Source of the DNA: a virus
Length of the DNA stretch: 29,661 nt
Direction: 5' to 3' (one strand)
IMG/VR virus record: IMGVR_UViG_3300020214_001555
Coordinates: 1 to 29,661 of that record
The notes below the pieces were generated by a model that did not search any database, had not been told where the DNA came from, and was given only the letters and a program-made list of their open reading frames with translations. Shown piece by piece: positions 9,250 through 20,872 of this stretch. Made by a program: the position numbers and the translations under genes. How positions within the stretch are numbered: the stretch's first letter is position 1; the number at the start of each line of letters is the position of its first letter.

Positions 9250-9624
9250 ATGGAAACTAAAACTGCATTTACACCCAAACGAATCCACAGTATCAAGGCC
9301 CTGCGAGATTCGGTTATCGTTTGTGACATGAAGTTTACAGGTCGCCAACTCAGCAGTGGCATTGCTTTGCTGGATGATAACGGCAAAGCAGATGGTATTA
9401 GACCTCGTTGGGGTCAGGTGTATGAAGTCGGTCCCAAACAACAGGATGTCAAACCTGGTCAGTGGGTGTGCGTGGCCCATGGTCGTTGGACCCGAGGGCT
9501 AGAAATTGAAGATGATGAGGGTACCAAAACCATACGCAAGATTGATCCCAAAGATATCCTGCTGGTCAGTGACCAATATCCGGGATTAGATGATACAATT
9601 TCAGATGCCATCAGCGGCAGCTAA
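9250..9624 (+). CDS. 31: GroES/gp31-like co-chaperonin
   Basis: This 124-residue protein has features of a GroES-fold co-chaperonin. A flexible mobile loop (residues about 30-42, GRQLSSGIALL) holds a hydrophobic tripeptide like the IVL that docks on GroEL. It is followed by the RPRWGQVYEVGP strand, VKPGQWVCVAHGRW and a C-terminal IDPKDILLVSD. T4 gp31 replaces GroES on host GroEL so that the large capsid protein can fold; the same job is likely here. It begins at the base after the preceding stop. It is longer than GroES (about 97 residues) and close to gp31 (111). Identification rests on pattern recognition of the phage family and is fairly secure. Confidence 0.82.
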   Translation: METKTAFTPKRIHSIKALRDSVIVCDMKFTGRQLSSGIALLDDNGKADGIRPRWGQVYEVGPKQQDVKPGQWVCVAHGRWTRGLEIEDDEGTKTIRKIDPKDILLVSDQYPGLDDTISDAISGS

Positions 9625-11144: not shown

Positions 11145-11709
11145 TTGTGATGGGGTGCTCCTGGACTGGGAGTGGGCATTCAATGTGTGGATACAACAAC
11201 ATGGATTTGAACCACGGTCTGATGCCAAGCTGCATTATGACATGGGCATACGGTATGGTGTATCCAAAGAGCAAATACGCAAGCTCATAAAAATATTCAA
11301 TGAATCAGCGTCAATTGGATTCCTTCCAGCTTTAAGAGATTCGGTATATTATGCCAAACGCTTGCACGAAGAACATGGGTACAGGTTTCATTGCATTACC
11401 AGTCTCAGCCGAGATGAGAATGCTCAAAAACTACGCGAGATGAATCTGCACAAGATCTATGGCGCCACGGCATTTGAACGCATAGTGTGTTTGGACACCG
11501 GCGCCAACAAAGATGAAGCCTTAGAAGAATATGAAGGCACCGGATGCTGGTGGATCGAGGATAAACCTGAAAATGTTCTAGCGGGATGGCGCTTGGGATT
11601 ACGTCCCATGTTGCTGGAACATGGACACAACATGAACTATGTTCATCCCGATGTATACCTAGCTAAAAATTGGAAAGATATTTTTTATAAAATTACCGGA
11701 GATTCTTAA
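11101..11709 (+). CDS. HAD-superfamily hydrolase/phosphatase
   Basis: This 202-residue protein has HAD motif I, LILVDCDGVL, with the nucleophile Asp15 and general acid Asp17; motif II ITSLS; and a C-terminal motif WIEDKPENVLAG. The cap insertion between motifs I and II is helical. HAD enzymes of this size often remove phosphate from nucleotides or sugars; the substrate cannot be read from sequence. The start at 11101 overlaps the upstream gene by 44 bases; it is chosen as the nearest ATG before motif I, and an upstream start at 11038 would lie entirely inside the earlier gene. Its stop overlaps the convergent methyltransferase stop by four bases. Confidence 0.82.
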   Translation: MKSRWKNLNRLILVDCDGVLLDWEWAFNVWIQQHGFEPRSDAKLHYDMGIRYGVSKEQIRKLIKIFNESASIGFLPALRDSVYYAKRLHEEHGYRFHCITSLSRDENAQKLREMNLHKIYGATAFERIVCLDTGANKDEALEEYEGTGCWWIEDKPENVLAGWRLGLRPMLLEHGHNMNYVHPDVYLAKNWKDIFYKITGDS

Positions 11710-12239
11710 CGGATCCACTCAGCGTAGAGCCGTACCACTTTATTATTGGTCTCAGTTTGTGGATTGATTTGTCTAAAATCGTAACGCTCTGCATAGTTTT
11801 CCAATATCCTATGGCTCCAAGGAAAAAATGGTATTCCTTGGCATTTCTCTGATGCATGATCTCTACGGCCCGGGTTGAGACGCCAATAAACTCTGCTATG
11901 GGGTTTCAAACAAGATACTATTTTGTCTATTTGCCGGGTTATGACCTCTTCTGTACCAAAATTGATGCTGCCTAGACAAGTGGCCACATCAAACAATTTT
12001 GTTGGTTGGAATTCTTCTATGGTACATACTATGTCGGCTTCATCCATGGCTGGATCTACTCCGATCACATTCTTTACAAGTCCTTTGAAGGGATTGTGAC
12101 CACAACCGACGTCTAACAACCACTCATGCGGTTGTATTTTTGCTGCTATTATTTTGTATCCGCTATGTGTATACGCATCAAGGCTGGGTTTCCAGTAATT
12201 TCTAAAATAATCATTGAGGTATTGTTGATCATGAAACAT
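11706..12239 (-). CDS. Class I SAM-dependent methyltransferase
   Basis: This 177-residue protein has motif I LLDVGCGHNPFKG (residues about 41-53) followed by VIGVDPA, the acidic strand that binds the ribose of S-adenosylmethionine. Later strands (FDVATCLGSINFG and RVYWRLNPG) fit a small Rossmann-type methyltransferase. Substrate unknown: candidates are surface sugars or lipids, or small molecules. The start at 12239 leaves only a nine-base overlap with the divergent gene at 12231; an in-frame ATG at 12302 would overlap that gene by 72 bases. No ribosome site supports either. It is one of two reverse-strand genes, and they bound the accessory island up to 16974. Confidence 0.78.
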   Translation of the reverse strand: MFHDQQYLNDYFRNYWKPSLDAYTHSGYKIIAAKIQPHEWLLDVGCGHNPFKGLVKNVIGVDPAMDEADIVCTIEEFQPTKLFDVATCLGSINFGTEEVITRQIDKIVSCLKPHSRVYWRLNPGRRDHASEKCQGIPFFPWSHRILENYAERYDFRQINPQTETNNKVVRLYAEWIR

Positions 12240-12461
12240 GATATCGTAGTTTATGTGAAATGGTTTAGTGCAGTAATAATACTTATAGCCATGATACTCC
12301 ATGTGCTAGGAATCACACCATGGAATTCTCTATTACAGCTGATAGGTGCAGCTGGCTGGGTTTATGTAGGATGGAAATGGAACGAAAAAGCCATCATCTT
12401 GAATTTTCTTCCACAGTTCGCTATAATAATACCGGGTTTGATATATCTTTATTTGAAATAG
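12231..12461 (+). CDS. Small two-pass membrane protein
   Basis: This 76-residue protein has two hydrophobic segments at about residues 9-27 and 54-74, separated by a short loop with GWKWNEKA. It resembles small membrane proteins of unknown function found in alphaproteobacteria and some phages (possibly the DUF6552 type; from memory). It starts at an ATG after a GAGG at a long distance and overlaps the start of the reverse-strand methyltransferase. A function cannot be given. Confidence 0.6.
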   Translation: MKHDIVVYVKWFSAVIILIAMILHVLGITPWNSLLQLIGAAGWVYVGWKWNEKAIILNFLPQFAIIIPGLIYLYLK

Positions 12462-12469
12462 GACTAAAA

Positions 12470-13054
12470 ATGCTACCAGACAAAATATTCATGATTGGTG
12501 CCCCAGGATCTCGGTGGTCAGGGATCGCACAAAATATCGAAGACAATATCGCAGGATTCAATGTCAGCGACCGATCTCCTGATAGAACTTATGTACATCA
12601 TAACTTTAGTGGACATGTGGGTACCTATTTTGGCACAGGTTGGGAATACAGCACAGACCTCAATGAATCAAATATCAATGCTCCTTATCCAGATTTATCT
12701 GGTACTCGAATACTGAAAAGTCACGAATGGGCATATTGTCTCGATGACATCAAAGAAAAGTATCCGACTTCTTGGATTTTTTTAGTTTTTCGCCCTGATA
12801 TGAGCTGTTACAGTTGGTGGCACGAAGCAGGAGGGTTTACCATCAAATATCCCGATTATATTCCTTATTATCGAGACAGTGCCAATATGTTATGTGAAAT
12901 AGTAAAACAGAATCAAGCCATCATGAAATTTGCACAAAAATATGATCTTTCTTGGCGACACATTTCCGGGACTTGGATACAAGAAAATTTTGGTCAATAT
13001 GTAGAGCCTAGCCGTCGTGATCCTGACACACTTGTAACTATATTCAAACCATGA
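12470..13054 (+). CDS. Sulfotransferase-like P-loop protein
   Basis: This is a 194-residue protein. The N-terminus KIFMIGAPGSRWSGIA (residues 5-20) resembles the phosphosulfate-binding loop of sulfotransferases. The centre, ILKSHEWAYCLDDIKEKYP followed by LVFRPDMSCYSWWHEAGGF, resembles their 3'-phosphate-binding Arg/Ser region. True sulfotransferases have a more standard P-loop, so the activity is uncertain; it may use another activated donor or have lost catalysis. Related proteins occur in marine T4-like phages. The start at 12470 has AGGA (12463-12466) upstream; longer forms run into the previous gene. Its stop overlaps tctA (ATGA). Confidence 0.6.
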   Translation: MLPDKIFMIGAPGSRWSGIAQNIEDNIAGFNVSDRSPDRTYVHHNFSGHVGTYFGTGWEYSTDLNESNINAPYPDLSGTRILKSHEWAYCLDDIKEKYPTSWIFLVFRPDMSCYSWWHEAGGFTIKYPDYIPYYRDSANMLCEIVKQNQAIMKFAQKYDLSWRHISGTWIQENFGQYVEPSRRDPDTLVTIFKP

Positions 13055-14493
13055 TAGAATACGCAGTCTGGTGCCTGCTGGGCACGTTCTATGGAGTACT
13101 GATAGGCATCGTGCCCATGGCCGGCGCTACCACTGGTCTCCTCACGGTTTTCGGGCTGGCAGATCAGTTCCTGGGTAATCCCTATCTCGGTATTGTCTTC
13201 ATGACCAGCCTCGTGGCAGCTACCAGCACGGCAGATTCTTTTACTTCCATACTCACGGGCATACCGGGATCTAACACCACTGCCGCATCGGTGATTGACG
13301 GATATCCTATGGCCAAGCAAGGTGAGGCTGGACGTGCCATCGGTATCGCTCTCATGGACAGTACCATCAACGGCTTGTTCTGGGGTGCAGTGGCTTTTGG
13401 ATTGATGCCTTTCTACAGCAAACTAGTCATGGTCTTTGGCATACCTGAGTTCATGGCATTCATGATCTTGAGCCTAGCCTGCGTGGGTTTCGTGGCTTCC
13501 AAGAACCCCACACTGTCAGTGATCAGCATAGGCATAGGTATATTCATTGGTCTCATAGGACAGGATCCAGCCACAGGTGCGCATAGATTGACATTTGGCT
13601 GGGATTATCTGGCCGCGGGTGTCAACATGATTCCGCTCATAGCTGGACTGTTCGCCGTGCCAGAACTGGTCAATGGGTTGACCAAACCCGTGGGTCGCCC
13701 TATGCCCATAGATGACTACTGGAACCAGCTGCGCCAGGGTTTCCGCGATTGCTGGCGCTATCGCCGAGACATGTTCCGTGGAGGCGCCATTGGATTTTTC
13801 ACTGGACTTTTGCCCGGCATCGGTGGCACCATCGGGGACATAATGGCCTATGGCGCCACAGTGGCCAGATATCCCCAAGAGCGTTTTGGCAATGGTAACA
13901 TCAAGGGACTGCTAGGCTGCGAAGGAGCTAACAATGCACAGAAACCGGCCAGCCTCATACCCACGGTGCTGTTTGGCATACCTGGTGCACCATTTGCCGC
14001 TATCATGATGGCAGTGTGCATGTATTTTGGCATGGAACTGGGTTCGCCACAACTGCTCAACGATTCTGCCTTTGCCTGGAGTTTAGGAGCATCGTTCCTG
14101 GTAGCCACCGTGATCTGTTTCGTGGTATGCATGTTTACCACACGCTGGATCGTCAGGATCCTGGAACTTCCATATTGGATCTATGCGATGCTTATCTTCT
14201 CAGTGATCGTCTGGAGCTGCCTGCAGTATTCAGGAACCTGGAATGATATCTACATCTTGGTCATTTGCAGTGCTCTGGGCCTGATCTGTACGCACTGGAA
14301 GTTTTCTCGACCGGCTATCTTGATCGCATATATATTGGCAGAGAAGTTGGAAAACTATTCTCAGCAAGCCTTGACACTCTATTCTTGGAGTGATCTACTG
14401 GGGAGACCCGTCTTTGTAGTGCTCATCACTGCGAGCGTCCTTGTCATATCTTGGAGCCTGCTACGCAAAAATCGTGGTATAGAATACACATAA
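13051..14493 (+). CDS. tctA: Tripartite tricarboxylate transporter, large membrane subunit (TctA family)
   Basis: This 480-residue integral membrane protein has roughly ten to twelve hydrophobic segments. Family hallmarks are visible: LIGIVPMAGATTG near residue 18, TSILTGIPGSNTTAASVIDG near residue 66, YPMAKQGEAGRAIG, and the mirrored second-half loops LLPGIGGTIGDIMAYG and LFGIPGAPFAAI. The TctA subunit forms the sodium-driven channel that takes a carboxylate from the periplasmic protein TctC. It lacks the first hydrophobic stretch typical of bacterial homologues (usually about 500 residues). It is co-directional with the binding protein downstream, but no tctB is visible. Base use appears more GC-rich than in the neighbours, suggesting a later acquisition. 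It overlaps the previous stop by four bases. Confidence 0.9.
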   Translation: MIEYAVWCLLGTFYGVLIGIVPMAGATTGLLTVFGLADQFLGNPYLGIVFMTSLVAATSTADSFTSILTGIPGSNTTAASVIDGYPMAKQGEAGRAIGIALMDSTINGLFWGAVAFGLMPFYSKLVMVFGIPEFMAFMILSLACVGFVASKNPTLSVISIGIGIFIGLIGQDPATGAHRLTFGWDYLAAGVNMIPLIAGLFAVPELVNGLTKPVGRPMPIDDYWNQLRQGFRDCWRYRRDMFRGGAIGFFTGLLPGIGGTIGDIMAYGATVARYPQERFGNGNIKGLLGCEGANNAQKPASLIPTVLFGIPGAPFAAIMMAVCMYFGMELGSPQLLNDSAFAWSLGASFLVATVICFVVCMFTTRWIVRILELPYWIYAMLIFSVIVWSCLQYSGTWNDIYILVICSALGLICTHWKFSRPAILIAYILAEKLENYSQQALTLYSWSDLLGRPVFVVLITASVLVISWSLLRKNRGIEYT

Positions 14494-14509
14494 TTTATAG
14501 GAGAAACAA

Positions 14510-15574
14510 ATGAAAAAGTTTATCGCACTCGTTGCGACTTGTCTGACCATGGCCACGGCACAGGCCGAGTATCGCATGATAGTGCCACAGGAAGCCGGTA
14601 ACGGCACAGCAGTTTGGGCTGCCATCATAGCCCGGCATCTGGAAAAACAGCTAGGCGAACCCATCGTGATCCAGCATATCCCAGGAGCCAAGGACATACC
14701 AGGCTTCAATGAGTTCCATAACAAACTGCGCAATGATCCTAAGACCATCATGGTCAGCCACGGAGGTAATGGCATCGGTTATCTGGTAGACCGCGTGGAC
14801 TACGATTACAAGTTTTATGATAGCATCGGAATGATGAATCTCAACATCGTGGTGGGCAAACACATAGGTAATCCCGCTGATGGAAAAGAACGCAAGGTAC
14901 GGATCGCGGGTGCTTCAGGACAAGAAACCGATGGCATGGCCATCGCTATGTTGTTGTGCGGTAACCTCCCTACCATGCAGGCATATCTCGATTGTTGGAA
15001 TCAAAAAGCAGTCTGGGTCAATGGCGTCAAAGGATCCGAGCGTCGGTTGGGATTCATGCGTAAAGAATTTGACGTGGCTAGAGAATCTGTGGTATCGTGG
15101 TTCAAATACTACACTGATCCCAAGGCCGGTGCAGAGATCTGGTTCCATCACGGTGTGTACGATCTCAAAACACGCCAACAGAAAGAAGATCCTAATTTTC
15201 CTGCTGGGTTGAGATTCGAACAACAATTCCGCAAGATACACGGCACAGAACCTGTCGGACCTTTGTATGAGGCCTACACATTGAGTCGCAACTTCCGCGA
15301 TGTATTACAAAAAGCTCTGTGGGTCAACAAGGGCAATCCCAACACTGAAAAACTGCGTGCAGCTCTGGCCAAGATGATCACCGATCCAGAAGCGGCCAAG
15401 GCTCTAGAAGCTGATACTGGACGTTACGAGTGGATCATCGGTGATGCAGGCAACCAAGTGGTAGATCGCCTACGCGGTAATATCACAGAAAAGAAACTGC
15501 AAAACATGGTATGGTGGCACGAAAATGCCTACAAGTTTCCCAGTGTATACAAACCACACCTAGTGATCAAATAA
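14510..15574 (+). CDS. tctC: Periplasmic solute-binding protein of the TctC/Bug family
   Basis: This 354-residue protein has a clear signal peptide: basic start MKKF, a hydrophobic core and an AQA cleavage site after residue 19. The mature part begins YRMIVPQEAGNGTAVWAAI, a diverged form of the family's opening strand, then ARHLEKQLGEPIVIQHIPGAKDIPG, where family members place the loop that contacts the ligand carboxylate. It delivers a carboxylate to TctA. The glycine-rich ligand loop is altered (EAGNGT), so the ligand could differ from citrate. AGGAG precedes the start in the 16-base gap after tctA. Its stop shares one base with the next gene. Confidence 0.85.
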   Translation: MKKFIALVATCLTMATAQAEYRMIVPQEAGNGTAVWAAIIARHLEKQLGEPIVIQHIPGAKDIPGFNEFHNKLRNDPKTIMVSHGGNGIGYLVDRVDYDYKFYDSIGMMNLNIVVGKHIGNPADGKERKVRIAGASGQETDGMAIAMLLCGNLPTMQAYLDCWNQKAVWVNGVKGSERRLGFMRKEFDVARESVVSWFKYYTDPKAGAEIWFHHGVYDLKTRQQKEDPNFPAGLRFEQQFRKIHGTEPVGPLYEAYTLSRNFRDVLQKALWVNKGNPNTEKLRAALAKMITDPEAAKALEADTGRYEWIIGDAGNQVVDRLRGNITEKKLQNMVWWHENAYKFPSVYKPHLVIK

Positions 15575-16245
15575 TGTCACTGAGTTCTTGGGAAAATTCT
15601 AAGGAAAAAAGTCAGTATCATTTTGATACTGACTTTATAGATCCTCGTTGGGATACGGCCATAGTGCTTGGCAGATTTGTGGGCGATTGGCATCAAGAAT
15701 TACTACAGACTATGATTCAGAGCAAGCCTGTCAACTGGGAAACACGTGGGCATCGTAAAGATATGCCGGTCTGGGTCCAGCCCGATTTGATACAAGAAGA
15801 ATATGATATCGAACACGCGGGTGCTAATCCAAAAATGACATTGGGACATTTGAACTATGATTTGCCTCCAGTATTCCAACGCATGGTGGATCTCTTTGCT
15901 TTAGATCATGTCATGAGTAGATTGCATGTACAGACGCTGGGCCAGGTATGGAACCTGCACATTGACAAATTAGAGAAATGGTGCCCGGAACATCCTGAGA
16001 AAGTTTTACGGGTTTTTATCCAACTCCAAGATTGGAAACCGGGACAGTTTTGGGAGTTTGGAAATTTTCATTGGAACCAATGGAAAGCAGGGGACATTGT
16101 CACCTTTGATTGGCAAAATGTTCCCCATTGTACTGCCAATGCTGGGTATGATCCAAGATGCACTTTGCAAGTCACTGGAGTCAGGACACCAGACACTGAG
16201 CATTTTTTACAGATGCTCAGTGTCTCTCGGGAGTATAAAGTTTAG
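15574..16245 (+). CDS. 2-oxoglutarate/Fe(II)-dependent oxygenase (aspartyl beta-hydroxylase-like)
   Basis: This 223-residue protein has the iron triad: His129-x-Asp131 in WNLHIDKL and His185 in NVPHCTANAG. Arg195 in DPRCTLQVTG is placed to bind 2-oxoglutarate. The layout fits a cupin-fold oxygenase, closest in feel to the aspartyl/asparaginyl hydroxylase group. Such enzymes are frequent in T4-like aquatic phages, with unknown targets. The start is the ATG sharing a base with the tctC stop; longer forms lie inside tctC. The coding sequence contains a perfect 13-bp hairpin near each end (15608-15636 and 16191-16225). It meets phoH tail to tail with no gap. Confidence 0.82.
   Translation: MSLSSWENSKEKSQYHFDTDFIDPRWDTAIVLGRFVGDWHQELLQTMIQSKPVNWETRGHRKDMPVWVQPDLIQEEYDIEHAGANPKMTLGHLNYDLPPVFQRMVDLFALDHVMSRLHVQTLGQVWNLHIDKLEKWCPEHPEKVLRVFIQLQDWKPGQFWEFGNFHWNQWKAGDIVTFDWQNVPHCTANAGYDPRCTLQVTGVRTPDTEHFLQMLSVSREYKV
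15608..15636. repeat. Perfect 13-bp inverted repeat just after the transporter genes
   Basis: AAAGTCAGTATCA (15608-15620) and TGATACTGACTTT (15624-15636) are perfect complements around a three-base TTT loop. It lies 34 bases after the tctC stop, inside the start of the oxygenase gene. As RNA it would form a stable hairpin ending in U residues, so it could attenuate transcription after tctA-tctC. Confidence 0.75.
16191..16225. repeat. Perfect 13-bp inverted repeat at convergent gene ends
   Basis: AGACACTGAGCAT (16191-16203) and ATGCTCAGTGTCT (16213-16225) are perfect complements with a nine-base loop (16204-16212). It lies 20 bases before the junction between the oxygenase and the reverse-strand phoH. 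There is no T-run after it on either strand, so it is not a textbook terminator. Confidence 0.75.
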
Positions 16246-20113: not shown

Positions 20114-20370
20114 AAACCATGGTGCTAGTTTTTACAATGGTATTCTTGGCAGGCTGTTCGCTGACTGTGCCGGTCAAACGGAATTTTCCCGAAGCACCGC
20201 CGACCTTGATGCAACCTGCAGACCCATTGAAAACTTTAGATCCCAATGATCCAAAACTCAGCAACGTCATTGAAACTTCTGTGGAAAACATGGGCACCTA
20301 TCATGAGTTAGTTGAAAAATACAATGCTTGGCAAGAATGGTACCGGGCACAAAAAAAGATTTTTCAATAA
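20110..20370 (+). CDS. Outer-membrane spanin-like lipoprotein (Rz1-like)
   Basis: This 86-residue protein has a lipoprotein signal peptide: MKTM, a hydrophobic core and a lipobox LAGC with the lipidated Cys16. The mature part is Pro-rich at first (FPEAPPTLMQPADPLKTL), then helical, ending NAWQEWYRAQKKIFQ. This fits an o-spanin that meets the coiled coil of the upstream membrane protein and fuses the inner and outer membranes after wall breakdown. The overlapping start with that gene fits a spanin pair. Confidence 0.78.
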   Translation: MKTMVLVFTMVFLAGCSLTVPVKRNFPEAPPTLMQPADPLKTLDPNDPKLSNVIETSVENMGTYHELVEKYNAWQEWYRAQKKIFQ

Positions 20371-20383
20371 AAGGAATGTAAAC

Positions 20384-20872
20384 TTGCAAAAAACAACGGC
20401 AAAAATAAAAACAGAAGATTGGATGAATTCAAAGTGGCGACCCATGATGGGTTGGATGTACATGTTGGTGTGCATCTCCGACTTTGTGATATTTCCTGTG
20501 CTATGGAGTATCGTGCAAGTAATAGCCGGTGGGGAGGTCAAAAGTCAATGGAATCCTATAACCTTGCAAGGTGCCGGTCTGTTTCACATGGCCATGGGTG
20601 CTGTGTTGGGTTTGACTGCTTGGGGACGCACACAAGAAAAGATGACCGGCGCCAACAATGGTGGACTGGCGTTGTCAAATCCAACAGTTGGTGCATCGAT
20701 TCACAGTTTTGGGTCAGTATCATCGGGAAGTACTACAATGAACCCTGTATCAAATTTGGACACAACCACAGTGGCTGTATCAAGACCCATGCCCAGCTTG
20801 GGGGGTTCAACACCGGTTGCCAGCGCCACAGGTAAACCAATGCCTGTACAGCCCACACAGCCGGAACTTTAA
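20384..20872 (+). CDS. Holin of the 3-transmembrane (GTA-type) family
   Basis: This 162-residue protein opens with KWRPMMGWMYML, then has hydrophobic segments around residues 23-48 and 62-80 with the family signature NPITLQGAGLFHMAMGAVLG and AWGRTQEK. The C-terminal half is disordered and Ser/Thr/Pro-rich. Holins make the holes that let the endolysin reach the wall and set the time of lysis. The start is a TTG with AAAGGA (20370-20375) eight bases upstream; ATG starts further up lie inside the o-spanin gene. It directly follows the o-spanin with 13 bases between. Confidence 0.78.
   Translation: MQKTTAKIKTEDWMNSKWRPMMGWMYMLVCISDFVIFPVLWSIVQVIAGGEVKSQWNPITLQGAGLFHMAMGAVLGLTAWGRTQEKMTGANNGGLALSNPTVGASIHSFGSVSSGSTTMNPVSNLDTTTVAVSRPMPSLGGSTPVASATGKPMPVQPTQPEL

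Follow-up and report, generated by a model that had tools for sequence, protein, structure and literature searches.

What does a phage do with two parts of a transporter that usually has three? Transporters of the tricarboxylate transporter family (TTT) are normally three-part systems. The window analysed here, a 29.7-kb viral fragment (29,661 nt, IMGVR_UViG_3300020214_001555), encodes on its plus strand a 480-aa TctA-type membrane subunit lacking a C-terminal TctB domain (13051–14493; assigned by PF01970, model and tree) followed by a protein whose predicted fold is that of a TctC/Bug-type periplasmic binding protein (354 aa, 14510–15574), with an N-terminal hydrophobic signal-like segment and altered ligand loops. 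A sequence-only reading of this DNA had described the pair as TctA and a TctC-type protein without TctB, borne by a phage operon. Several lines of evidence lead us to a similar view, in which the pair is most likely a B-less importer, still putative, of a small carboxylate.

The pair and its setting in the window

Both open reading frames are intact and form part of a same-strand block. The stop of the upstream gene (12470–13054, plus strand) shares four bases with the TctA ATG, 16 bases separate TctA from TctC, whose start is preceded by GGAG, and the TctC stop codon coincides with the start point of the downstream gene (15574–16245, plus strand). Genes typical of phages lie on both sides of the pair (clamp loader, PhoH, phage ATP-dependent protease, endolysin, peptide deformylase and MazG), and together with the tight overlaps and short gaps they bear out the placement of the pair inside a phage gene block. 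Neither immediate neighbour has a Pfam match; by eye only, the upstream product has a P-loop-like N terminus and resembles sulfotransferases, and the downstream product shows an HxD...H...R pattern like that of 2-oxoglutarate/Fe(II) oxygenases. Farther upstream are a gene for a 76-aa small hydrophobic DUF6552 protein (12231–12461, plus strand; PF20189, 50 bits) and, on the minus strand, a methyltransferase-like gene (11706–12302; PF13489 below cut-off, E 0.012). Elsewhere in this phage, the product of 145–474 resembles by eye an IscA/ErpA-type iron-sulphur carrier (C...CGCG) and falls in a PHROG of unknown function, and the products of 9250–9624 and 20312–20872 comprise a GroES-like/head-morphogenesis protein and a gene-transfer-agent-type holin match.

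Profile comparison clearly assigns the first protein of the pair to TctA, with PF01970 matching at 310.6 bits (cut-off 28.9, E 1.8e-92) over profile positions 2–422 of 423. The hallmark of TctA is a repeated G-x3-G-x3-G-x2-PG-x-G motif in TM1 and TM7 (PMC5812351). The TM7 copy is complete in the window protein (G244–G258) and the TM1 copy keeps G11, G15, G19, P22 and G25, with M or I in place of G23 in most viral sequences. An earlier suggestion that this TctA is missing its first hydrophobic stretch is not borne out: an AF2 model (pLDDT 87) places the first helix at residues 2–20, which carry the G-x3-G-x3-G-x2-P core, and only the short N-terminal lead of bacterial homologues is absent, the PF01970 match beginning at residue 6 here versus residues 18–28 in bacterial proteins. 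Moreover, of 36 TctA columns that 95% or more of bacterial homologues conserve, 29 are retained in 90% or more of the viral homologues. Placing the TctA fold by structure search was set aside; Foldseek returned no match at E <0.001, and the aligner's hits to yellow-stripe and IT-superfamily carriers (INDY, NaCT, SiaM) were too weak to use at Z 7–9. A sequence search of solved structures found no TctA relative.

The second protein is harder to name from its sequence. PF03401 (TctC) found no match above cut-off in it or in any of 40 related records, NCBIfam has no name for it or for TctA, and PHROGs has no family for either. An AlphaFold2 model based on an alignment (A1) of 44 viral homologues reached pLDDT 91, and its 11 best PDB matches were all TctC/Bug structures (among them Bug27, Rpa4515, BugD, TphC, TBP, MatC, 2dvz and 4x9t; Z 20.0–22.0 over 267–277 residues), the next family scoring 13.2. 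The A1 profile searched against the PDB also reached BugD, at E 0.013. On the combined strength of the model confidence, the structural matches and the BugD hit, the protein is, by its predicted fold, a strongly diverged TctC/Bug protein; the label TctC thus holds for the fold and not for plain family membership by sequence. The changed ligand loop noted previously is confirmed, as the acidic residue of the first loop (GGxxD), D in bacterial partners, is replaced by A, S, T or Q in viral proteins, and the second loop is unlike that of bacterial homologues. Because of these changes the substrate may not be a carboxylate.

Absence of TctB and kinship with fused TctAB proteins

Of the 40 viral records selected through their C or A gene, all carry PF01970 and none matches PF07331 (TctB); nor does the window record. 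In 79 fetched loci the viral TctA is 474–506 aa long, a length that rules out a fused B domain. A profile built from the B domain of bacterial fusions found nothing at E <10 among viral ORFs by default, and its best value with filters off was 0.15. Within 1 kb of the viral TctA, an adjacent gene for a protein with 3–5 hydrophobic segments was found in 0 of the 79 loci; run as a control on 31 bacterial loci with unfused TctA, the same script found such a gene, for a protein of 143–209 aa, next to TctA in 28. Four related records of 147–167 kb yielded neither TctB nor a small multi-helix gene beside the pair, which bears on a TctB encoded elsewhere in the phage. Together with the tree described below, the negative profile search in the window, the 79 loci and the positive control uphold the claim of a TctA and a TctC-type protein without TctB, and they support its interpretation as a reduced two-part system with putative transport activity. 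Since TctB is poorly conserved and most of the records searched are fragments, a very divergent B far from the pair could be missed.

Might an unrelated small membrane protein encoded by the phage have replaced TctB? We consider this quite improbable. The DUF6552 protein adjoins the pair in the window and in several relatives, and a 116-aa protein with three segments lies 1.1–1.4 kb from TctA in 7 of the 79 loci. DUF6552, however, is encoded by only 17 of 40 pair-bearing records, often well away from the pair, and was not found in the four records of 147–167 kb, so a part as an obligate stand-in is not supported; three of these four (G002, G012 and G016) gave no homologue of the 116-aa protein either, and the other (G020) has the 116-aa protein only. 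The DUF6552 protein is 70–83% identical across distant pair-bearing phages and is more conserved than the transporter. The other small protein (116–117 aa, three hydrophobic segments) recurs near the pair in one phage sub-group (L276, ~1.4 kb after TctA; L247, L286, L293 and L299).

In many phages the pair sits amid the same set of neighbours in varying order, a recurrent cassette with a methyltransferase-like gene, a P-loop gene (sulfotransferase-like by eye) and an oxygenase-like gene. Within 2.6 kb of TctA at 55 loci, homologues of the oxygenase-like gene occur in 45, of the methyltransferase-like gene in 37 and of the upstream P-loop-like gene in 21. These neighbours are not part of the machine, because the pair also occurs without them (G002).

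The most reasonable source of a phage TctA without TctB may be a protein in which the two were joined. In samples of two bacterial classes, the best bacterial matches to the viral TctA are open frames of 625–727 aa consisting of TctA and a five-helix tail; one of these tails matched PF07331 at 7.4e-6, just below cut-off. In a careful mixture-model tree, viral TctA forms one clade (100/100) on a long branch (1.84) that is sister to fused TctAB (95/91), the two being joined at 99/98; the other side has further fused proteins at its base, and the unfused bacterial TctA all fall in one group (100/95). A quick tree, in which some long branches among bacterial rows were flagged, gave the same placement, and the exact attachment of the viral clade could suffer long-branch effects because its own branch is long. 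The non-phage proteins that best match the C profile are encoded next to fused TctAB, and A and C therefore probably came together. As the nearest bacterial TctA is fused and paired with the nearest bacterial TctC, the simplest reading of this sequence evidence is that the phage proteins descend from a fused TctAB and most likely shed its B domain in the viral line.

Fused TctAB of 625–727 aa is common in the two bacterial classes sampled (L130–L140, L177–L196, L207–L210), and most of the B tails escape the Pfam TctB model. The TctA-TctB fusion, called rare in a 2018 review (PMC5812351), is frequent in our samples.

Spread, base composition and selection

Scanning with the TctC-like protein turned up 238 viral stretches, and an alignment scan with TctA found at least 540 that encode it. 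A TctC-like gene lies alongside TctA in 77 of the 79 fetched loci, with no more than 24 bases between the two in 74; 46 loci are arranged C-A and 31 A-C, many of them being close relatives so that the counts are not independent. The A-C order that the sequence-only reading had set against the usual C-B-A is thus real in the window but no fixed trait of the phage pair. The records reach 342 kb, and Gp23 (T4-type capsid protein) was found in six of the virus records searched. A 316-kb viral record also encodes a second, more distant TctA (G029:C1:55511–56755, E 1.7e-70).

The two genes have partly separate histories. At two loci (L007 and L011) C is 80–81% identical to the window C and A only 64%, suggesting from sequence comparison that A and C have been exchanged separately between phages. 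At another locus (L028:3168–9053) one TctA is accompanied by two TctC-like genes that differ from each other (62% and 53% identity to the window TctC), which suggests a single channel served by two binding proteins; bacteria also add binding proteins to one channel. The doubled TctC and the separate histories of A and C fit a transporter with varying substrates.

Values of dN/dS are mostly 0.03–0.15 for A and 0.04–0.19 for C, with one close C pair at 0.37 and several dS values near saturation. Such purifying selection and the 29 conserved positions argue for working proteins.

The pair is indeed GC-richer than its neighbours, as had been noticed, with fourfold-site GC of 0.57 (TctA) and 0.52 (TctC) versus 0.26–0.53 in other window genes. 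This excess is what could be cited for a bacterial contaminant or a freshly captured bacterial fragment, an origin that we regard as barely credible. The translational overlap of the pair with genes of the phage block, the viral-only TctA clade and the presence of the pair in records of 98–316 kb that carry the Gp23 capsid gene all stand against it; the tree and the gene context refute contamination. A scan of the cellular genomes of ~85,000 species with the C profile likewise returned 2 MAG contigs only. The phage-type pairs at L116 and L117 are on contigs binned to bacterial MAGs (marine bacterium B5-7 and Pelagibacter), and because these pairs have the phage form, both are probably phage contigs that strayed into the bins. 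The recent transfer that had been read from the GC content also fails, as synonymous-site GC in relatives follows each phage's own composition (0.13–0.61) and viral TctA is one old clade. Nor is there support for a recent bacterial source, because the two nearest relatives (TctA 77–79% identical) live in GC-richer phages, in contigs of 50–51% GC; exchange of the pair between related phages is possible.

Putative function and comparison with known systems

The computed results comprise the identity of A, the fold of C, the conservation and close linkage of the pair, the lack of B in the available DNA, the kinship with fused TctAB and purifying selection. The explanation that best accommodates them, to which we assign a probability of roughly 0.58, is a phage version of the TTT that shed its small membrane subunit, derived from fused TctAB and importing a small organic anion. 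The exported TctC-type protein would bind the anion in the periplasm and pass it to TctA, which would import it into the infected cell driven by an ion gradient. The ancestors would have been bacterial systems with TctA and TctB as one fused protein and TctC encoded alongside; after loss of the B domain, the A-C pair would have become widespread and diverse in tailed phages, some of them T4-like. Transport itself, its operation without any TctB, its direction, the coupling ion and a carboxylate substrate are the parts that we infer. That TctA and TctC form a two-protein, binding-protein-dependent secondary transporter, kept after TctB loss in a large clade of tailed phages, we judge to have an even chance.

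Counting against a B-less transporter is the one bacterial system tested for this, terephthalate uptake in Comamonas, which needed both TctA and TctB according to the passage of PMC5812351 that cites Hosaka 2013. The phage proteins might instead assemble with a TctB made by the host, or with the B domain of a host fused TctAB; this would agree with the need for TctB in Comamonas and with the many TTT systems in bacterial genomes of the sampled class, of which 97 of 289 have a strong TctA match. We hold this hybrid to be unlikely, though a serious contender, since B is part of the A protein in the nearest bacterial relatives, an ancestry that implies no free B partner, and since B is absent over a clade of hundreds of phage contigs, so that a compatible B would be required in every host. 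A role other than transport, such as blocking superinfection, changing the envelope, or acting as a sensor or a sink for a ligand, draws on the altered ligand loops, the PM or PI form of the TM1 PG motif, the modification-enzyme-like genes that often neighbour the pair and the ability of TctC homologues to signal (BctC, PMC5812351). We think it improbable, because A and C stay side by side, their genes overlapping or separated by short gaps, although a sensor or an exclusion factor could do without one of them, and because most of the conserved TctA positions survive.

The B-less importer, if real, would make carboxylate-type import a common means for environmental phages to feed the cells they infect, beyond phosphate uptake or photosynthesis. 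PMC5812351 lists the role of TctB as unknown, and a natural, long-lived and selected clade without it lets that role be addressed directly.

Viral genes of this kind have appeared in passing. SUP05 viruses were reported to carry a tctA domain match of unknown role as a possible auxiliary metabolic gene (PMC4164917), and tricarboxylate-transport genes near viral norB/nirK were likewise listed as possible auxiliary metabolic genes (PMC8115048). These, like the genes studied here, are TTT genes on viral contigs, and the available excerpts of the two papers describe no TctC pairing, TctB absence or origin; across the open literature, of which coverage was incomplete, we found no report that describes the pair, its lack of TctB or where it came from. 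The Bug fold of the window C recurs in phage proteins of the BFVD (A0A6J5L7K0 and others from uncultured Caudovirales, annotated 'PBP2_Bug_TTT'), which are 13–14% identical to it and so belong to a different branch.

With the tctCBA system of Salmonella and the bctCBA system of Bordetella, the phage pair shares a PF01970 TctA with the TM1/TM7 glycine-proline repeat largely kept, a TctC/Bug-fold protein and adjacent genes; it differs in having no TctB, a C protein below the Pfam TctC threshold, C-A or A-C order and a phage carrier. Closer still are fused TctAB proteins with an adjacent TctC, reported for Paraburkholderia caribensis (PMC5812351) and found here in many proteobacterial genomes. 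They form the nearest TctA clade, and the loop tryptophan (GGG[ST]xVWA) of their C partners is common to the phage C proteins; the phage TctA ends where their B domain would begin and is ~165–200 aa shorter. The phage TTT without TctB is an unusual, widespread variant of an ordinary kind of transporter.
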